Of a DNA stretch of 64,000 bases, positions 928 through 16,089 are shown piece after piece. The position numbers were made by a program, and so were the translations under genes. Numbering within the stretch: position 1 is the stretch's first letter; each line of letters begins with the position of its first letter. The DNA lies in NCBI RefSeq assembly GCF_002834295.1, contig NZ_PISP01000001.1, positions 558,001-622,000 on the forward strand, given 5' to 3'. Source of the DNA: Rhodohalobacter barkolensis. Its GTDB lineage: Bacteria > Bacteroidota > Rhodothermia > Balneolales > Balneolaceae. Below the pieces are notes generated by a model. The model did not search any database. It saw only the letters and a list, made by a program, of their open reading frames with translations, and was not told where the DNA came from.

Positions 928-1856
928 GATAGCTCAGCCTCCTGCTGTTTTTTGATATTGTCTTCACCGACGGTTGAAATAAATATCTCATTCAGTGATG
1001 GTTCAACAAGCTGAAACTTGTGAATCTCGGCTTTTTCCATAGCTTTTCTTAGAATCTCCTGTGAGTTCAATCCGTTTAAGATTCGAATTTCTGCAAAATT
1101 TGTTGATCGGTTGTTAATTCGCACATCATCCAGTTCATCCAGGAACCCGCCGTCGCCCTGGAATTCTATTAAAACCGTATTCTTTCCGAAGTCTTTCTTG
1201 ATCTGGCGTAGGTTTCCGGTTAATACAACTTTTCCGTTGTTGAAAAGGCAGATATCATCACACATCTGTTCCACCTGCTCCATGCGGTGAGTAGAAAACA
1301 GTATTGTACTTCCCTGTTCCTTCAGCTCGATGATAATCTCCTTCAGCAGTTCACTGTTGATCGGGTCGAGACCACTGAACGGCTCGTCAAAAATGTATAT
1401 TTCCGGGTTGTGAACTATTGTTGCAATGAACTGTATCTTTTGGCTCATTCCTTTTGAGAGTTCACCTACAACTTTTGAGTGCCAGTCGTAAGCATTGAAG
1501 CGATGCAGCCAGTACTTAATTTTTTCACGCGCATCATTTTTGTTCATCCCTTTTAACTGAGCGAGATACATGAGCTGTTCACCAACCTTCATCTTTTTAT
1601 ACAAACCCCGCTCTTCGGGCATATAACCAATCATCTTCTGAGTTTTGGGGCTTACCTGCTGACCATTAATGGTGATCTCACCTTCGTCCTGAAGAGTGAT
1701 ATAATTGATCATCCGGATGGTAGTTGTTTTACCGGCACCGTTGGGTCCAAGGAGTCCGAAAATTCTGCCTTTTTCCACTTCGAAAGATACGTCGTCAACA
1801 GCTTTTGTTTGGCCAAAGCTTTTAGAAACCCCCTCAACTGATATCGTTACACTCAT
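924..1856 (-). CDS. ABC transporter ATP-binding protein (NatA-like)
   Basis: ATPase subunit powering the ABC-2 permease encoded directly downstream. Visible motifs are Walker A GPNGAGKTT at residues 37-45, a signature region ELSKGMSQK (a variant of LSGGQ) and Walker B with the D-loop IFDEPFSGLDP, then a switch histidine in STHRMEQ. The 310 residues include an additional C-terminal domain of about 90 residues, as is usual for NatA/YhaQ/DrrA-type exporters. The ATG at 1856 is the first in frame and the gene ends in an ATGA overlap with the permease. The leaderless-looking upstream region 1857-2079 is AT-rich and shared with the divergent glgA gene. Confidence 0.93.
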   Translation of the reverse strand: MSVTISVEGVSKSFGQTKAVDDVSFEVEKGRIFGLLGPNGAGKTTTIRMINYITLQDEGEITINGQQVSPKTQKMIGYMPEERGLYKKMKVGEQLMYLAQLKGMNKNDAREKIKYWLHRFNAYDWHSKVVGELSKGMSQKIQFIATIVHNPEIYIFDEPFSGLDPINSELLKEIIIELKEQGSTILFSTHRMEQVEQMCDDICLFNNGKVVLTGNLRQIKKDFGKNTVLIEFQGDGGFLDELDDVRINNRSTNFAEIRILNGLNSQEILRKAMEKAEIHKFQLVEPSLNEIFISTVGEDNIKKQQEAELS

Positions 1857-2079
1857 TTAAAAAAGTTAGTTAAAGAATTGATTCTAGATGATGATAGCAC
1901 TTAGGATACTTTAAAAAAAACAAAGAAAGAAATTATTTGGATACTCAGGGTGTGATCTTTCAGTTCAAGAGAACGATTCATTATTTATCTTAATGATTGC
2001 GCATCATTTATTATTTTCTTAATTGAATACAGTAGTATCAACCTACGGACATTTAAAAATTTAGTTATATCTCTTCATT

Positions 2080-3516
2080 ATGAATATTGTTCATATATCG
2101 GCTGAGTGTTACCCATATGCGAAAGCCGGTGGACTCGGGGATGTTGTTGGGGCTCTTCCGAAGTATCTTAATCAGAGTGGTCACAGATCACACGTTATTA
2201 TTCCATTTTACTATAACAACAAATTAAAGAAAGCGAATAAAACACTCGTCTATGAGAGTAATGCTCTTTTAGGGGGTGAACCATTTATTTTCAGGGTGTA
2301 TAAGATTGATGATAGTCAAGATTTTGATCTGTTTGTAATTGACATTCCCGGGCGTTTTGACAGGCCAGGTGTTTATATCGATCCTTGGTCCGGTCATGCC
2401 TATTGGGATGAGAAAGAACGGTTTTTCAGTTTTCAGATCGCTGCCTTGGAGTGGTTAAAGATCCAGGACGAAAAACCGGATATCATACATTCACACGACC
2501 ACCATACCGGGTTGATTCCGTTTATGATGAGCCAGGCTTTCCGGTTCGAAAAATTCAGAGAAACACCGTCTGTCCTTACCATTCATAACGGGGAGTATCA
2601 GGGCAGATATAACCGGGATGATTATGATCTCCTGCCTGCGTTTAATCTGGAAAATCTGGGGCTTTTAGATTGGGATGGAGCGTTGAACTCACTGGCTGCA
2701 GGGATTAAATCTGCTTGGAAAGTGACAACCGTATCGGAAGGGTATATGAACGAACTTCTGGAGTATTGTCACGGATTGGAGCAACTGCTTCGTCACGAAA
2801 AAGAGAAAACCACAGGAATTGTTAATGGCATCGATTCTGATGTCTGGAATCCCGCAGATGACCCGTATATATCCGATCACTTTTCAGTTAAAAATTTCAA
2901 AACGGGTAAGAAGAAAAATAAAAAGGTTCTCTGTGATGAATTTTCAATTAACCATAATCGTCCCCTGTTTTCATTCATCGGTCGGTTGGTTCGCGAAAAA
3001 GGTGCCGATCTCCTTCCGGGTCTGATAAAAAGTTGCCATGAAAATGGAATAGAAGCTTCATTTTTGGTTCTGGGAACGGGTGACCCCGGTTTGCATCAAA
3101 TCTTTGAAAATCTTCAAAGTGATTACGTCGGATATTTTGATACCCGGCTGGAATATAACGAGAAGTTAGCTCACCAGATTTATGCGGGTAGTGATTTCCT
3201 GCTTATGCCTTCCAGGGTTGAACCTTGTGGATTAAATCAGCTTTATGCCATGCGTTATGGTACAATTCCGGTGGTAAGAAAAACCGGAGGATTAGCCGAC
3301 ACAGTCATAGATTTTGAAGAGAAGAACGGCTATGGTGTAGTTTTTGATGAGTTTGATCAAAAGGAGGCTGTGGAAGCAGTTAAAAGGGGAGTGGAACTAT
3401 TCAACATAAAACAGTTATTTAATAAGAAAGTAAAGCAGGTAATGTCACTCGATTATTCCTGGAAAAGTTCAACCGGCAATTACATAAAATTATATCATTC
3501 ATTGCTAAATAAATAA
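2080..3516 (+). CDS. glgA: Glycogen synthase (ADP-glucose starch synthase, GT5)
   Basis: Cytoplasmic glycosyltransferase that extends alpha-1,4-glucan chains from ADP-glucose. The N-terminal ADP-glucose-binding motif KAGGLGDV sits at residues 15-22, after the usual MNIVHISAECYP start. The C-terminal GT-B half carries SRVEPCGLNQLYAMRYG and KTGGLADTV (about residues 377-410), the catalytic and nucleotide-sugar loop of GT5. The length of 478 residues is normal for bacterial GlgA. It is followed after 11 bases by glgC, so the pair forms a short glycogen-synthesis operon; no branching enzyme gene is seen in this window. Confidence 0.96.
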   Translation: MNIVHISAECYPYAKAGGLGDVVGALPKYLNQSGHRSHVIIPFYYNNKLKKANKTLVYESNALLGGEPFIFRVYKIDDSQDFDLFVIDIPGRFDRPGVYIDPWSGHAYWDEKERFFSFQIAALEWLKIQDEKPDIIHSHDHHTGLIPFMMSQAFRFEKFRETPSVLTIHNGEYQGRYNRDDYDLLPAFNLENLGLLDWDGALNSLAAGIKSAWKVTTVSEGYMNELLEYCHGLEQLLRHEKEKTTGIVNGIDSDVWNPADDPYISDHFSVKNFKTGKKKNKKVLCDEFSINHNRPLFSFIGRLVREKGADLLPGLIKSCHENGIEASFLVLGTGDPGLHQIFENLQSDYVGYFDTRLEYNEKLAHQIYAGSDFLLMPSRVEPCGLNQLYAMRYGTIPVVRKTGGLADTVIDFEEKNGYGVVFDEFDQKEAVEAVKRGVELFNIKQLFNKKVKQVMSLDYSWKSSTGNYIKLYHSLLNK

Positions 3517-3527
3517 GGGGTTCAACT

Positions 3528-4799
3528 ATGAAAGAGAAGACCATTGCAATTATTTTGGGGGGAGGAAGAGGTACAAGGTTACATCCTCTTACCTATCACA
3601 GAAGTAAACCGGCAGTACCCGTTGCGGGTAAATATCGGTTAGTAGATATACCGATCTCCAACTGTTTAAATTCCGGGATTCGAAAAATATTCGTACTTAC
3701 TCAGTTCAATTCCGCTTCGTTGAACCGACATATAAAGAATACGTACAACTTTGATCTCTTCTCTCACGGATTTGTTGATATTCTCGCTGCCGAACAGACT
3801 CCTAAAAGCAGTAACTGGTTTCAGGGAACTGCTGATGCAGTGCGCCAATCCATTCATCACCTCGCCAATCATGAATATGACTATGTGTTGGTTTTATCCG
3901 GTGATCAGCTCTATCAAATGGACTACGATAAGCTGATTCAGGATCATAAGCAGCAGGGAGCCAACTTAACGGTAGCAACCATACCTGTTACGGCAGAGGA
4001 TGCTTCCGGATTTGGCATTATGAAGACCAACAAAGATGGTCAAATCGACTCTTTTGTAGAAAAACCTGCTCCGGAGGAGCTGTCTAAATGGTCATCAGAA
4101 ACTACCCCGGAGCTGAAAGAGGAGGGTAAAGTTTACCTGGCTTCGATGGGAATCTATGTATTCAATAAAGACGATCTGAACAGACTCTTTGAAGAGAATC
4201 CTGACGCTACTGATTTTGGTAAGGAAATTATCCCCAAAGCGATAGATGAAGGTGCAAAAGTGAATAGTTACCCGTTTGTAGGATACTGGACGGATATCGG
4301 TACAATCTCCTCCTTTTTTGATGCAAATATTGCGTTGACGGAAACGTTGCCGAAGTTTAATCTCTTTGATAATGAGCGTCAAATCTATACACGTGCACGT
4401 TTGCTGCCAACTTCAAAATTGACGGGTACATCGCTCGAATATGTAATTGTAGCGGAGGGATGTATCATCGAGGCCAGTCGGATAGAACGATCTGTAATTG
4501 GTATCCGATCCAGAATCGGCAAAGGAACCACAATCGAGTCCTCAATTGTGATGGGTAACGATAATTTCCCTACACCGGTTGATTTGGATATGCAGAGCAG
4601 TGAGATGCCGTTGATGGGGATCGGTCAGAGATGTTATATCAGCCGCGCCATTGTAGATAAAAATGTTCGCATTGGGAATGACGTTCGAATTGTAGGCGGA
4701 TCTCACCTCGAGGATGGAGAATATGATCATTATCATGTTGTAGACGGAATAGTCATCGTTCCAAAAGGAACGGTTATACCGGACGGGTTTACAATTTAG
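3528..4799 (+). CDS. glgC: Glucose-1-phosphate adenylyltransferase
   Basis: Makes ADP-glucose from glucose-1-phosphate and ATP, the committed and allosterically controlled step of glycogen synthesis. The N-terminal nucleotidyltransferase motif GGGRGTRLHPLT and KPAVPVAGKYRLVDIPISNC are at about residues 11-47, the catalytic VLSGDQLYQMDY follows, and the sugar-phosphate-binding FVEKP is present. The C-terminal third has the hexapeptide left-handed beta-helix pattern (IEASRIERSVIGIRSRIGKG and IVDKNVRIGNDV). Length 423 matches the family. It lies 11 bases behind glgA, with GGGG-rich sequence before the ATG that can serve as a ribosome site. Confidence 0.96.
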   Translation: MKEKTIAIILGGGRGTRLHPLTYHRSKPAVPVAGKYRLVDIPISNCLNSGIRKIFVLTQFNSASLNRHIKNTYNFDLFSHGFVDILAAEQTPKSSNWFQGTADAVRQSIHHLANHEYDYVLVLSGDQLYQMDYDKLIQDHKQQGANLTVATIPVTAEDASGFGIMKTNKDGQIDSFVEKPAPEELSKWSSETTPELKEEGKVYLASMGIYVFNKDDLNRLFEENPDATDFGKEIIPKAIDEGAKVNSYPFVGYWTDIGTISSFFDANIALTETLPKFNLFDNERQIYTRARLLPTSKLTGTSLEYVIVAEGCIIEASRIERSVIGIRSRIGKGTTIESSIVMGNDNFPTPVDLDMQSSEMPLMGIGQRCYISRAIVDKNVRIGNDVRIVGGSHLEDGEYDHYHVVDGIVIVPKGTVIPDGFTI

Positions 4800-10521: not shown

Positions 10522-11805
10522 TTACCTCTCAGCACTGCGCTGTTCTACTTTTTCGTGATACTTTTCATAAAGCTGACGATGCATGTCCATCATATCGCTT
10601 TCTCTTCCTTCAACATAAACCTGTTCAATCTGAGTGCTGTACTCAATTGGATTCCCGGTTGTTATGAGAAGAGTTGCATCCTTTCCAACTTCAAGAGTTC
10701 CGATTCGATCATCCAGACCGAGTATAGTGGCCGGAAAGGAAGTTACGGATCTGAGGGCTGTATCCGCATCTAACCCAAATGCGGCTGCGGCACCGGCTTC
10801 GTATGGAAGTCGATGAGCGTACGGAGCACTGGATCCGCCGGCAATGGCAAACTGTACTCCGGCTTCGTGTAGTTTAGAAGGCAGACTATATCGTGCATCA
10901 TAGCTCTCCCAGTCCCTGTTCGAAGAGGTGAGAACACTTGTAACAATAACAGGTATCTGCTTTGTTTTGAGGTGATCGGTTACAAGGTGCGCATCCGAAC
11001 CGCCCAGAATAATCAGCCGAACTCCTTCCTCTTCAGACCATGTAATCGCATCCTGAATCTGACGAACTTCGTTTGCATTCACAACGACCGGGACATCCCC
11101 TTTGAGTACAGGTATCATCGCTTCCCATCGGCTGTCGAGATCATGGCGTTGGGCCTGTCCGGAATCCATCGCCTCACGTGCAGTTCGATAAGCTTTTGCA
11201 TCTGCAAACGTGTCCCTAATCCTGCGAAGATTATCTTCATAATTATCATTACCGGCATTTGGCCAGTTTACTATCAGTCCGGTACTTGATTTCAGGATCA
11301 TTTCATCCCATGACCAACCGTCCATTTTCATGGCTGATGATTGTCCGGAGATGATTCCGCCACCGGGTGATGTTACAGAAGTTAAAACACCGGCAGAACG
11401 TGCAATACCAATATGACGACTTTCCGGATGAAAAGCTCTTTCGGGCAGTACATTCGGGTTTATTAAACCCTGTTCGTTGACATCAACTGTCATATCCACG
11501 GCTCCAATTTCATAAATTCCCATTTGGTTATAGGAATCGATTAAACCTGGATAGATCTGTTTTCCGGAAACATCTTTTGTCCGAACACCTGCAGGAACGT
11601 TGATATCAGAACCCAGAGCGGTAATTTTTCCATCTTCGAAAATGATGGTTCCATTTTCAATAACATCACCTGCAAGTGTATGAATGGTGCCACCTACAAG
11701 TGCGATAGGCTCACTCTGTTTGGGTGCAGGTATTTGGGCTTCCAAAGCGGGAGCAAACATCAGACAAACTGCAAACAGTGTAAGCGATAAGATTACGTTT
11801 TTCAT
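10522..11805 (-). CDS. Secreted amidohydrolase-fold protein, degenerate metal site
   Basis: Predicted exported protein of the amidohydrolase/imidazolonepropionase-like superfamily. I prefer the ATG at 11805, because it begins MKNVILSLTLFAVCLMFAPALEAQ, a clean signal peptide. An upstream in-frame ATG at 11874 has a good GGAGG site and overlaps the preceding gene's stop (TAATG), but would put about 23 residues before the leader. The fold markers VGGTIHTLAGDVIENGTIIFEDGKI and the closing DRIGTLEVGKDATLLITTGNP are clear. The strand after PGLID, where active members have HxH, reads SYNQ, so the two first metal ligands are missing. It is probably partnered with the 988-residue homologue directly upstream. 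Confidence 0.8.
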   Translation of the reverse strand: MKNVILSLTLFAVCLMFAPALEAQIPAPKQSEPIALVGGTIHTLAGDVIENGTIIFEDGKITALGSDINVPAGVRTKDVSGKQIYPGLIDSYNQMGIYEIGAVDMTVDVNEQGLINPNVLPERAFHPESRHIGIARSAGVLTSVTSPGGGIISGQSSAMKMDGWSWDEMILKSSTGLIVNWPNAGNDNYEDNLRRIRDTFADAKAYRTAREAMDSGQAQRHDLDSRWEAMIPVLKGDVPVVVNANEVRQIQDAITWSEEEGVRLIILGGSDAHLVTDHLKTKQIPVIVTSVLTSSNRDWESYDARYSLPSKLHEAGVQFAIAGGSSAPYAHRLPYEAGAAAAFGLDADTALRSVTSFPATILGLDDRIGTLEVGKDATLLITTGNPIEYSTQIEQVYVEGRESDMMDMHRQLYEKYHEKVEQRSAER

Positions 11806-11873
11806 GGTTGATAAATTTGAGATGTTCAATCGATTTTGCTGATTGTGAAGAGAAATTGATTTTACTTTTTCCA

Positions 11874-14840
11874 TTATTTCTCCTCCATAATTAGTCGAAT
11901 GAGCTGTGCGCGCTCTTCCTCAACTGTTTGGCGTAGTTCCCTGTCTTCATCGAGGTCGAAATATTTACGGCCGTCTATCCAGGTCTGCTCTGCTTTGGTG
12001 AGGGTAGAGAGCGGATCTCCGTTCCAAATTACAAAATCGGCATCCTTGCCGTTTTCGAGTGATCCGACCCGATGGTCTACACCAAGAAGCTTGGCTGTAC
12101 TGATAGTTACCAACGAAAGCGCATCTTCAGGATCCATTCCGGCCCGTACCATCTTAGCCGCTTCCCAGTTCATACGGGATGCAATCTGGCTGTTGTCGGA
12201 GTGAAGGGAGGTGAGTACACCTGCTTCTGTCAGAAGTTTGGCGTTGTAGAGTATTCCGTCCTGGGCTTCCATTTTAAAAGATGACCAATCGGACCATACA
12301 ACAGCACCGGCACCGTGTTCAGCCAATTCGGGAGCTACCTTGTACGCTTCAACACCGTGATGGAATGCTTTGATCGTGAAATCAAAACGTTCAGCCAGGC
12401 GCATCAGCATCAGAATTTCATCCTGACGGTAGCTGTGCGATTGTACCAGAATATCTCCATTCAGAATGTCTCGCAGTGCATCGAGTCTGAGATCTTTGCG
12501 AGGAGGTATTCCTTCTCCGGTCTCATTCCACTCATTCCAGCGTGCTTCATAATCGCGGGCCATTCTAAAACGATCTTCAATCATCTGTTCGGTACCCATC
12601 CGGGTTTCCGGGTAGCGGTCTGAACCAACACGTTTTGGATTTTCACCCAGTGCGAATTTTACGGTACGGGGAGCATCATCAATTTTAAGATCATCAGATA
12701 AAGAACCCCATCTCATCTTGATATGTACGTTCTGTCCGCCAATGGGATTTGCAGATCCGTGCATAACATGAGCTGTAGTCAATCCACCGGCAATCTGGCG
12801 ATACATCCAGATGTTATTGATGTTTAGAACATCACCCATGCGAACTTCTGCCGTGATTACGTTTCCAACTTCGTTTACACCGTTCACACCGGAGTGGATG
12901 TGGGCGTCGATCAGACCCGGGGTAACATGTTTGCCTTCTGCATCAATTTCGACGGCATTTCGTGGAGCACGCAGGTCCTGTCCAATTTCTTCTACTTCGC
13001 CGTTCGAGATAATCATATCAGCATTTTCGAGAATACCCTCGGGTCCCATTGTCCAAATGGTTGCATTCCGAACGATCACATTTCTTGGCTGCTCGGGAAT
13101 CGCGTTTCGACCGTACTCCATAGCAGGACGCAGTTCGGAGAGTTGAAGATCCCGATTCATGGTTTCTGCTGAATCCTCAGACTCACTCTCTGTTACAGAG
13201 CCGGTGCGTGTGGCACTAAACTGAACCCGGTCTCTGCCGGTTACTTCAGCCCAGCCACGAAGATTGTCTCCATCTACGGATCCGGTTAACCGTACCGGTC
13301 CTTCGAGACCCAGTTCGTTGCCGGAAAAGTCGGCTCTGAATCGTCTGGCCTGATCCTGCATGGAAGCAGACATCAGATCAATTTCGTCGCCGTTTATTGT
13401 TACGGTTCCGTTCAGTCGGCCGGGTCGGGACTCTTCAACCACCAGTGTACCGTCTATTGATCCATCGGTTGATACAATTTCCCATTCACCGCGCGGGTCA
13501 AGTTCCTTTTCGGGGTTTATTCGATAGTGAGAACCATCAACCCAGAGATCGATGATTTTGGCACCATTTTCAAAAAGGTCTCCATCAGCTACAATGATGT
13601 TCGCTGCTTTGCCGGCTTCAAGTGTTCCGTGTGTGGAATCTATTCCCAAAAGACTGGCAGGGTTGGATGTTAACGCAGCCAGTGCAGTCTCTTTATCAAG
13701 ACCCAGTTGTACAGCTTTTCTCAAATTTCCTAAGAAGTCACCCGGTTTTTCCAATCCTGCGGTTGTGAATGAAAACAGAACACCCGCATCTGCCACTCTT
13801 GCAGGATTTTCAGGAGCAAGATACCAGTGGCGAAGTTCCGCAAGATCTTCACTGAGCGCGTCCTCAGGTGTTTCAACATCCGGAGCTTCAGGATAGTCAA
13901 GAGGCAAAATAAGGGGAGCATTATGCTCACTTAATACATCCAGAACTTTATATTCGTGACCATTTCCCAAAATCCAGGGATTGATAGAACTGAATTCATC
14001 TTTAAAACGCAATGCACGTAAAATTTCTTCATCACTTTCGGTATGAAATATCAGCGGCTGATCTCCATGAACGGCATCACGAAGGGAGGCAAGCGGTGCA
14101 TTCGATTCCGGCCGTTCCAGTGAAGGATTACTTCTGTACGCCTCATGAGCTCTTTCATACCAATCGGCATCGTAAAGTGTCTGACGAATAAGGGCGATGA
14201 CACCAATTTGAGAAGTGGGATAGGTAAAACCGAAGTCCCGGTTTGTGGAAAGAGATACACCCTGTGCAATTCGATCCATAACCACACGATCGGAAACATC
14301 TCCGTCTTTGAGACTGATAACGGCTGCTTCACCTTTAAAAATACCGAGTGGCGGCATAGAAAGAGCCGCTGTAAAACCCTGGCTTCTCAGCGCAGAATTA
14401 CCATCATCTTCTGTATCAAATTCTTGTTCTGCTTTAAGATGTGATCGCAAGTTCGGGTTCCAGGAGTTGTTTCCTCGATCGAGTTCAACACGAGGTTCAT
14501 TCATCCCAACATCGCTGTAAGAGTCGATAAATCCGGGGTAGAGGGTTTTCCCTTCCATATCCCAGACACGGGCATCGGAGGGAGGAGAAACGCGTCTTCC
14601 AACGGCTTCAATCACACCGTCTCGGATCACCAGCGTAGCGTTGTTGATGGTTTGACCCGGTGCAGTTACAATAGTAGCATTAGTGAAAGCATGAACATTT
14701 GGTGTATTGTCTTTCATGCCGTCAGTAGGGGCTGTTTGGGCAACCAGCAGTGCCGGAAGGGCAGCGGTAATCATCAAAACAGCCATACACTTCAGAAGTG
14801 TCGTATTAATTTTGTCAAAGAGATGGTACATATGATTCAT
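11874..14840 (-). CDS. Secreted two-domain amidohydrolase, N-terminal domain degenerate
   Basis: A 988-residue exported protein with a signal peptide (CMAVLMITAALPALLVAQ) and two amidohydrolase repeats. Repeat 1 (about residues 45-430) has the fold landmarks TNATIVTAPGQTINNATLVI and GTLEAGKAANIIVADGD, but reads PGFIDSYSDVGM where a metal-binding HxH is expected. A beta-rich linker of about 110 residues with an antiparallel pattern follows. Repeat 2 (about 590-970) keeps PGLIDAHIHSG, QSHSYRQDE, AFHHGVEA and SLHSDNS, so its metal site looks complete. The family acts on cyclic amides or dipeptides, often as imidazolonepropionase- or Xaa-Pro-like enzymes; the substrate is unknown. Its stop overlaps the next gene's possible start, so the two are one operon. 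Confidence 0.85.
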   Translation of the reverse strand: MNHMYHLFDKINTTLLKCMAVLMITAALPALLVAQTAPTDGMKDNTPNVHAFTNATIVTAPGQTINNATLVIRDGVIEAVGRRVSPPSDARVWDMEGKTLYPGFIDSYSDVGMNEPRVELDRGNNSWNPNLRSHLKAEQEFDTEDDGNSALRSQGFTAALSMPPLGIFKGEAAVISLKDGDVSDRVVMDRIAQGVSLSTNRDFGFTYPTSQIGVIALIRQTLYDADWYERAHEAYRSNPSLERPESNAPLASLRDAVHGDQPLIFHTESDEEILRALRFKDEFSSINPWILGNGHEYKVLDVLSEHNAPLILPLDYPEAPDVETPEDALSEDLAELRHWYLAPENPARVADAGVLFSFTTAGLEKPGDFLGNLRKAVQLGLDKETALAALTSNPASLLGIDSTHGTLEAGKAANIIVADGDLFENGAKIIDLWVDGSHYRINPEKELDPRGEWEIVSTDGSIDGTLVVEESRPGRLNGTVTINGDEIDLMSASMQDQARRFRADFSGNELGLEGPVRLTGSVDGDNLRGWAEVTGRDRVQFSATRTGSVTESESEDSAETMNRDLQLSELRPAMEYGRNAIPEQPRNVIVRNATIWTMGPEGILENADMIISNGEVEEIGQDLRAPRNAVEIDAEGKHVTPGLIDAHIHSGVNGVNEVGNVITAEVRMGDVLNINNIWMYRQIAGGLTTAHVMHGSANPIGGQNVHIKMRWGSLSDDLKIDDAPRTVKFALGENPKRVGSDRYPETRMGTEQMIEDRFRMARDYEARWNEWNETGEGIPPRKDLRLDALRDILNGDILVQSHSYRQDEILMLMRLAERFDFTIKAFHHGVEAYKVAPELAEHGAGAVVWSDWSSFKMEAQDGILYNAKLLTEAGVLTSLHSDNSQIASRMNWEAAKMVRAGMDPEDALSLVTISTAKLLGVDHRVGSLENGKDADFVIWNGDPLSTLTKAEQTWIDGRKYFDLDEDRELRQTVEEERAQLIRLIMEEK

Positions 14841-15102: not shown

Positions 15103-15528
15103 TTAATCCTTTTGAGCAGGGAATAAGTCCTTATTTATTATAAAGACGAGAGGAAGAGCATAGATCCAGTGGCGAACCATCGAGCCTACCGCCATATCCA
15201 CACCCATGTCAAGTCCGGCTACTCCGGCACCTACTAGTGGAAACATGAAGAGCCATACAAGCGCAATAGTTTCTCCGGTTGTATAGATAAACGGTCTGAT
15301 CCATTTAGGTCCCCAAAGGGATGGGGCAATTCCTGCATAGAGTACGGCAAGCAGAACACCATTTCCGTAGTGACCGGCAACTCCGTAGGCTAATCCCAAT
15401 CCTGTCTTTTCTCCGAGCAGGGCGGGAATATCCCACCAGCCCATTCCCATCATCAATCCGAACAGATCGAAAAGGATGGTTCCTGCAATTCCGGCTAAGA
15501 TCGCTTTTGTCCAATTAATAGTATGCAT
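15103..15528 (-). CDS. Four-helix integral membrane protein, unknown function
   Basis: 141 residues with about four hydrophobic helices (ILAGIAGTILFDLFGLMMGM, VLLAVLYAGIAPSLW, ETIALVWLFMFPLVGAGVAG, WIYALPLVFII). The glycine-rich layout resembles the YagU/DUF6789 type of small membrane protein, but I cannot assign it firmly. It starts 12 bases after the stop of the AhpD-like gene, so both are probably co-transcribed; this suggests a link to redox or peroxide stress, which is inference only. Confidence 0.75.
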   Translation of the reverse strand: MHTINWTKAILAGIAGTILFDLFGLMMGMGWWDIPALLGEKTGLGLAYGVAGHYGNGVLLAVLYAGIAPSLWGPKWIRPFIYTTGETIALVWLFMFPLVGAGVAGLDMGVDMAVGSMVRHWIYALPLVFIINKDLFPAQKD

Positions 15529-15540
15529 ATCAAAGTCCTC

Positions 15541-16089
15541 TTAGTTTTGATTTACAGTTAGTTCCGGAGCTTCAGGAAAATCAATAGGTATTTCCGTGAT
15601 ATTATGCAGAAAGTTCGTAATCGATTTTTCGCCTACATTTATGATGACATCAATTAGATTTTCCTTACTGTAACCGGCATCAAAAAAAGTTTGGAGCGTC
15701 TCGTCGGAGATGTTTCCGCGGTTTTCAATAATTTCACGAGCCAGTCCGGCAAGAGCGTTAAATTTATCATCGAACGATGCCTTACCTTGACGTAATTCCA
15801 GGGTTTGCTCTTCTGTAAACCCATTCATTTTTCCCAGCTGAGTGTGAGCGGCCAGGCAGTAGTTGCATCCGTTGATTTCACTCACGGCCAGATTGATTAC
15901 CTCCTTCTCTTTGTTATTGAGAGATGTTTTGCCGTTGGCAAAATTCATGTATCTGGCCAGCCCGTTTTTGGAATGCGCATAGGTGGCATAGATGTTAGGT
16001 ACAAATCCGAGATTGGATTCTAATTGATCAAAGATCTGTTTGTTTTGATCAGTGACTTCATTTTTCGTAGGTACATTTAATGGTCTCAT
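15541..16089 (-). CDS. Carboxymuconolactone decarboxylase / AhpD-like alkylhydroperoxidase
   Basis: 182 residues with the AhpD-fold core. The motif CNYCLAAHTQLG provides the CxxC pair and the following histidine that, in AhpD and PA0269-type peroxidases, reduce peroxides. Upstream ARYMNFANGKTSLNNKEKEVINLAVSEINGC is the usual helix pair. It leads a two-gene operon with the small membrane protein. A thiol-peroxidase role fits an organism that also encodes a bacillithiol enzyme nearby, but a direct connection is not shown. Confidence 0.9.
   Translation of the reverse strand: MRPLNVPTKNEVTDQNKQIFDQLESNLGFVPNIYATYAHSKNGLARYMNFANGKTSLNNKEKEVINLAVSEINGCNYCLAAHTQLGKMNGFTEEQTLELRQGKASFDDKFNALAGLAREIIENRGNISDETLQTFFDAGYSKENLIDVIINVGEKSITNFLHNITEIPIDFPEAPELTVNQN

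Follow-up and report, generated by a model that had tools for sequence, protein, structure and literature searches.

A putative hetero-oligomeric metallo-amidohydrolase of Rhodohalobacter barkolensis in which one metal-binding domain is accompanied by two pseudoenzyme paralogues

P1 and P2 are two amidohydrolase-fold proteins that are encoded by adjoining genes in Rhodohalobacter barkolensis (R. barkolensis; NCBI RefSeq assembly GCF_002834295.1). The genes are located on contig NZ_PISP01000001.1, in a stretch of 64,000 nucleotides (positions 558,001 to 622,000 of the forward strand) that was analysed as a whole and is referred to as the window. P1 features two amidohydrolase domains, D1 and D2, and P2 features one. 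The six metal ligands of the fold are retained in D2 and are lost from D1 and P2, and the three domains occur together in two phylum samples. The proteins are probably the parts of an exported hetero-oligomer in which D2 is the catalytic domain and D1 and P2 are dead paralogues.

The locus

P1 is encoded directly in front of P2 on the minus strand (Table 1). The stop codon of P1 and the start codon of P2 overlap in the sequence TAATG, which is preceded by GGAGGAG, and Met24 of P2 is an alternative start. An earlier note on this DNA, made from the sequence alone, had described all of the domains as exported. Of this claim the hydrophobic N-termini stand in both open reading frames, as judged by eye, and they fit export of P1 and P2, which remains a prediction. 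The linker between D1 and D2 matches no Pfam family above the cut-off, the best being Fervidolysin_SD2 with 14.8 bits against a cut-off of 26. A weak match links it to the tail of the unfused D1 gene of L100, and it is possibly a small barrel domain.

Table 1. Features of the P1 and P2 genes in window coordinates (ORF, open reading frame; aa, amino acids).
Feature	Coordinates	Strand	Description	Basis
P1	11874..14840	-	988 aa: putative signal peptide, D1 (pseudoenzyme), linker, D2 (predicted catalytic)	ORF list, domain comparison
P1 putative signal peptide, residues ~1-35	14736..14840	-	hydrophobic N-terminus	by eye
D1, residues 44-448	13497..14711	-	amidohydrolase-fold pseudoenzyme domain	domain alignments
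D1 motif DSYSD, residues 106-110	14511..14525	-	at DxHxH place; Y108 and D110 for two His	
D1-D2 linker, residues 449-580	13101..13496	-	~eight beta strands	model
D2, residues 581-970	11931..13100	-	predicted catalytic amidohydrolase domain	Pfam, alignment, fold search
D2 metal ligands H647 and H649	12894..12902	-	HxH	alignment
D2 ligand E733	12642..12644	-	beta 4, GENPKR	alignment
D2 ligand H802	12435..12437	-	beta 5	alignment
D2 ligand H828	12357..12359	-	beta 6	alignment
D2 ligand D882	12195..12197	-	beta 8	alignment
P2	10522..11874	-	450 aa, separate pseudoenzyme	ORF list, alignments, model
P2 putative signal peptide region, residues ~1-47	11734..11874	-	hydrophobic stretch	by eye
P2 motif DSYNQ, residues 113-117	11524..11538	-	at DxHxH place; Y115 and Q117 for two His	

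Fold and family membership

P1 had been read in the earlier note as a 988-residue protein with two repeats, and the repeats are two amidohydrolase domains that are 25.8% identical over 395 residues (E = 1e-28). The D1-P2 and D2-P2 pairs are 27-28% identical (E = 1e-32 and 2e-29, respectively). The top solved structure by sequence is the same for all three domains, namely 3ooq, an amidohydrolase from Thermotoga maritima, which D1 matches with E = 5e-24 and P2 with E = 3e-37. The AlphaFold model of P2 has a mean predicted local distance difference test score (pLDDT) of 91.7 and a predicted template modelling score (pTM) of 0.90. The model of P1 has a mean pLDDT of 89.2 and a pTM of 0.86 over 954 residues, and this pTM fits a defined placement of D1 relative to D2 in the predicted structure. 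Fold searches were run with both models, and the P1 matches cover D2 only. The D2 part of P1 superimposes on 3ooq with Z = 45.3, 371 aligned residues, a root-mean-square deviation (rmsd) of 2.1 and 33% identity, and P2 with Z = 47.7, 370 aligned residues, an rmsd of 2.5 and 28% identity. D1 and P2 are members of the amidohydrolase fold by homology over the whole domain, as judged from sequence for D1 and additionally from the predicted model for P2.

The Pfam family PF01979 (Amidohydrolase superfamily) is matched by P1 with 107.6 bits (whole protein scored, best stretch 860-952) and by P2 with 31.8 bits, against a cut-off of 25. Two more specific names were considered and rejected. The imidazolonepropionase HutI family (TIGR01224) scores 89.7 bits in P1 and 34.9 in P2 against a curated cut-off of 298.15, and the Xaa-Pro dipeptidase type (NF051886) scores 111.4 and 50.2 bits against a curated cut-off of 500. 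Among the best 25 matches listed per protein, all NCBIfam names are far under their cut-offs.

Metal ligands

D2 features the motifs DAHIHSG, GENPKR, QSHSYR, FHHG and LHSDN, and its six ligand residues are the same as those at the ligand columns of 3ooq, the nearest solved fold. HMMER alignments to 3ooq place the motifs of D1, D2 and P2 in the same columns, and when the D2 profile is aligned with those of D1 and P2 (E = 8e-47 and 1e-54), the register agrees at the HxH site. The alignments confirm the earlier observation that the second repeat keeps the metal motifs, that the first reads SYSD and that the downstream protein reads SYNQ. In the ligand columns H/H/E/H/H/D, D1 of the window has Y, D, R, H, G and A, so that one of six is kept (the beta-5 His), and P2 has Y, Q, G, N, G and G, with none of six kept. 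The D1 alignment at beta 6 is ambiguous, the position being taken by Asn/Ser or by Gly, neither of which is a usual ligand.

The same division is found in the homologues. All six ligands are present in each of the 103 D2 homologues counted, and at most two are present in any of the 95 D1 and 96 P2 homologues, which agrees with the earlier description of one active and two degenerate domains. These counts combine two sets. The first consists of 68 fused D1, 68 fused D2 and 61 P2 domains (window included, all distinct), to which separate-gene genomes add 8 D1, 9 D2 and 9 P2. In this set six ligands are found in 77/77 D2, at most two in 76/76 D1 and at most one in 70/70 P2. In the second set (loci L151-L177) six are found in 26/26 D2, at most two in 19/19 D1 and at most two in 26/26 P2. 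A gap was scored as not kept, and in the D1 of L159, where two of the six columns are N, two of the remaining four ligands are kept. Four rows with truncated frames were excluded, comprising three D2 (six of six ligands) and one D1 with none, from a record labelled Planctomycetota (L059). The second gene pair of L090, L107 and L108, described below, was kept apart from these counts. In the D1 of two loci (L087 and L088) both HxH histidines are retained and the other four ligands are gone. The aligned sequences indicate that ligand loss in D1 and P2 is far in excess of chance. When the presence of the metal ligands, namely HxH, an acidic residue or Lys on beta 4, two His and Asp, is taken as the mark of an active amidohydrolase, D2 carries it and D1 and P2 do not.

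Conservation and selection

All six ligand columns have zero entropy in D2. The corresponding columns of D1 lie at entropy percentiles 61, 88, 95, 68, 9 and 82, where 0 is the most conserved, and in P2 they lie at 86, 85, 91, 91, 10 and 84. In each of the two, variability thus exceeds the domain median at five of the six former ligand positions. The conserved exception in both is the position of the beta-6 His, which is Gly in 66 of 68 D1 and 59 of 61 P2 sequences. Other positions are strongly conserved, with at least 95% conservation at 53 positions in D1 and 62 in P2; these include Tyr, Trp and Glu residues that D1 retains, and W204 and P205 of P2, which are near the old beta-4 site in sequence.

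The ratio of nonsynonymous to synonymous substitution rates (dN/dS) in the domains of three pairs is 0.02-0.11, and 0.05-0.11 for D1 and P2 alone, with dS saturated in two of the pairs. The only pair with unsaturated dS (L054/L055) gives 0.08 for D1, 0.07 for D2 and 0.11 for P2. These ratios indicate that D1 and P2 are under purifying selection. Both domains have lost the catalytic residues and have kept the fold and the selection, a combination that characterizes pseudoenzymes.

Gene order and fusions

Gene order was compared in other genomes. P2 is directly behind P1 in 47 of 50 loci that contain P1 or part of it (L009-L058), and in the other three (L031, L035 and L039) the contig ends before the P2 position. 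These records are mostly titled Balneolota (Balneolaceae, Balneolales, Balneolia), Bacteroidetes or Gemmatimonadota. One locus, L038, comes from a record titled Opitutia bacterium T3Sed10_336 and labelled Verrucomicrobiota, and its P1 and P2 group with Balneolota in the tree, possibly as a result of transfer or of a misbinned contig.

D1 and D2 also occur as separate genes. Eight loci from other genera or families (L099-L105 and L109) feature three genes in the same order, dead-live-dead, and L106 features the last two of the three at a contig edge. Among the matches listed in a sample of 296 genomes, the D1 frame is at least 980 aa, and therefore fused, in 86 of 150 D1 rows (149 genomes) and at most 721 aa in 64; the D1 frame of one genome (G064) is 2531 owing to N's. 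P2 is absent from the flank in 8 of 21 loci (L110-L130) and is on another contig in all 8 of these genomes. The order is D1, D2, P2 in the linked loci examined.

A Gemmatimonadota lineage features the opposite fusion, in which D2 and P2 form one frame and D1 is its own gene upstream. This arrangement is found in 8/8 loci that were chosen for a long D2 frame (L160, L161 and L166-L171). Gemmatimonadota also have dyads (L151-L158), which consist of a D2-like and a P2-like gene with no D1 adjoining. In all eight of these dyads the first gene has six ligands and the second has none.

A second live/dead pair is present in the genome of R. barkolensis itself, at L090 (G000:C3:317000-323000, frames 2910-4295 and 1653-2897, minus strand). 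The first protein of this pair reads PGLVDTHSHIG and the second PGLIDARSVVG, and the same pair is found in L107 and L108. The live member (pairA, three rows) has Thr in the beta-4 column.

Joint occurrence in two phylum samples

The first sample consists of the 296 genomes, from the phylum of the window (Bacteroidota, in which GTDB places the Balneolales, the order of the nearest named relatives), with best E values of at most 1e-80 for D2, 1e-70 for D1 and 1e-80 for P2 as cut-offs. The D2 cut-offs were chosen after the gaps in the match lists had been seen, and these gaps run from 1e-67 to 1e-91 in this sample and from 1e-125 to 1e-145 in Gemmatimonadota. D2 is found in 156 genomes, D1 in the identical 156, and P2 in 155 of these. 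The P2 set also numbers 156, as it lacks G064, in which the P1 frame runs into a stretch of N where P2 would follow, and includes G280, which has a borderline P2-like match (3.8e-81) and no D2 or D1 at the cut-offs. In ten families (f13, f18, f19, f20, f22, f23, f25, f26, f27 and f37) some genomes have all three domains and others have none of the set. This mixture suggests that the whole set has repeatedly been gained or lost together.

The second sample consists of 121 genomes of Gemmatimonadota, to which G338 belongs; this genome contains L040, whose record is titled Gemmatimonadales. A D2 of the triad type, defined by E values of 1e-140 or lower, is present in 67 genomes, with D1 in 67/67 and P2 in 66/67. 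The P2 search in this phylum scores only part of the candidates and can miss; the genome without a hit, G340, has a P2 frame at its locus L045. One genome (G348) has D1 alone, on a contig that ends about 600 bases further on.

Descent

An unrooted tree of 82 rows separates D1, P2 and D2 from one another, the three groups having support of 100, 99 and 100, respectively, by the Shimodaira-Hasegawa-like approximate likelihood ratio test. Each group holds separate-gene and fused rows, which part inside it with support of 79 for fused D2 and 99-100 for the others. Because each group contains both kinds of member, the tree fits a triad of subunits that predates the fusions. When distant outgroups are added in a quick tree, D1 groups with P2 to the exclusion of D2 (88, not starred), and the dead copy of the other pair of the R. 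barkolensis genome (pairB) is outside D1 and P2. The outgroup branches in this tree are long and one outgroup row is on the wrong side. A single shared loss of the metal site before D1 and P2 split is possible from this topology. In a D2 tree of 52 rows the D2-P2 fusion forms one group, the dyads form another and the D1-D2 fusion appears in two places, which may reflect two gains, or a gain and a loss.

Comparison with known systems

CRMPs (dihydropyrimidinase-related proteins) are animal neuronal proteins that feature the amidohydrolase fold without the catalytic metal site. They turn up as weak PDB matches to the window proteins, and they are not known to be fused to or paired with a live bacterial enzyme. 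Dead paralogues also accompany AdoMetDC and deoxyhypusine synthase, whose folds differ from that of the amidohydrolases. AdoMetDC is activated in a hetero-oligomer by prozyme, a catalytically dead paralogue (PMC5201418), and deoxyhypusine synthase is reported to be likewise activated by a dead paralogue in a hetero-oligomer (PMC3663545). Both systems are from trypanosomatids and have one dead paralogue, whereas there are two here, in bacteria. The pseudo-dihydroorotase (pDHO) of Pseudomonas aspartate transcarbamoylase (ATCase) is an inactive dihydroorotase homologue that is needed for ATCase activity because it assembles ATCase, and the pDHO domain of another organism is reported to lack the zinc ligands (PMC7053772). 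In that system the partner is the unrelated ATCase and there is one pseudoenzyme; here, however, the partner is a live paralogue and there are two pseudoenzymes. Searches of the open-licence literature gave, among the results listed, no functional paper on 3ooq and no paper on the D1/D2/P2 family.

Interpretation

The preferred explanation, to which we assign a probability of roughly two in three, is an exported hetero-oligomeric metallo-amidohydrolase in which D2 is catalytic and D1 and P2 are dead paralogues that act as obligate partners. An ancestral homo-oligomer would have become a hetero-oligomer in which one gene kept catalysis and the others kept only interfaces. D2, as the only metal site, would do the chemistry. 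D1, fused before D2, and P2, translated just behind it, would occupy the places of further copies of the active subunit and would hold D2 in an active assembly. Physical partnership is proposed because D2 is fused to either neighbour in different lineages and because of the joint gain and loss. ATCase with pDHO (PMC7053772) and AdoMetDC with prozyme (PMC5201418) are precedents for such a principle. The earlier suggestion of pseudoenzyme domains holds up well, since the fold is retained (pLDDT 89.2 for P1 and 91.7 for P2), purifying selection acts on both, and the set is conserved with D2 in two phylum samples despite the lost metal sites. We infer contact between the subunits, their stoichiometry, export, the need of D2 for its partners and the hydrolysis of a substrate. 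A more specific form of the proposal is an obligate three-part exported holoenzyme, in which D2 would be inactive alone and the dead subunits would complete or gate its active site. It would cover Bacteroidota, Balneolota and Gemmatimonadota, and both kinds of fusion would mirror the order D1-D2-P2. This form is held tentatively, at a little short of even odds.

Several observations count against a hetero-oligomer of D2 with obligate partners. The structure of 3ooq was deposited as a single chain type with a full ligand set. In 34 of the 121 Gemmatimonadota genomes a dyad-type D2-like gene is present without D1, and 30 of these have a P2-like gene; the other four (G380, G384, G436 and G450) have no P2-like gene at E = 1e-85. 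One further genome (G379) has a P2-like gene without D2, and the L090 pair in the R. barkolensis genome is also without D1. Given the 34 genomes and the L090 pair, some enzymes of this kind do without D1, and some perhaps also without P2. Membership of one operon and common ancestry may explain part of the joint inheritance, the ligand counts cover about a hundred homologues and not every genome of the two samples, and conservation does not tell a scaffold from a regulator.

The last point bears on the alternative that D1 and P2 are regulators or sensors. Their emptied pockets would bind a ligand (substrate, product or a cell-wall fragment), and the two would serve less to scaffold D2 than to switch or target it. 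The activation of AdoMetDC by prozyme (PMC5201418) is a precedent, and the conserved W204 and P205 of P2 are in keeping with it. The former ligand columns vary in both D1 and P2, which speaks against a single conserved ligand in the lost metal site, and a primarily regulatory role is considered unlikely. It is more doubtful still that three independent proteins share an operon and form no complex. Linkage is not strict, as the eight genomes with P2 on another contig illustrate; however, genomes with an unlinked P2 still keep both P1 and P2, and the fusion partner of D2 is D1 in some lineages and P2 in another.

A changed chemistry in D1 or P2, which the earlier note had also offered, would use a different catalytic site in the same barrel. 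The retained fold, the purifying selection and the conserved Tyr, Trp and Glu residues of D1 would be compatible with it. If a metal site had been rebuilt, its columns should be conserved; because the former ligand columns are variable, with Gly at the beta-6 position in nearly all sequences, this explanation is very improbable. Joint gain and loss with D2 also suggests dependence and not an independent enzyme. Nor does the alignment support other side chains completing the metal site of D1, as the columns concerned are variable. Neutral decay of degenerate duplicates, which would account for the lost catalytic residues, can be set aside almost entirely in view of the open frames in two phyla, the dN/dS of D1 and P2, their many conserved positions and the fusions to D2.

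Each element of the proposed D1-D2-P2 hetero-oligomer is known, namely the amidohydrolase fold and the pseudoenzyme partner. A set of one live enzyme and two dead paralogues that has two mirror-image fusions and almost always occurs together in two phylum samples was not found described in the open-licence literature searched. The dead-paralogue cases met there have a single dead partner, and two of them are in trypanosomatids. Here a live enzyme is accompanied by two dead paralogues in two phyla or more, natural fusions exist on each side, and many sequences are available for asking how homo-oligomers become obligate hetero-oligomers. The retention of the dead copies beside the live one in many distantly related bacteria points to required partners rather than leftovers. 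For annotation, it is a warning that two of three "amidohydrolase" domains in such sets are without a metal site.

Neighbouring genes

The neighbouring genes are not conserved, with no cluster present in more than 5 of 24 loci of at least 11 kb. For this reason, and because the NCBIfam names are far below their cut-offs, no pathway or substrate is named. In the window, the genes directly upstream of P1 are a gene of the carboxymuconolactone-decarboxylase family (15541-16089) and then one for a protein with a weak DUF2938 match, below the cut-off, at 15103-15528.

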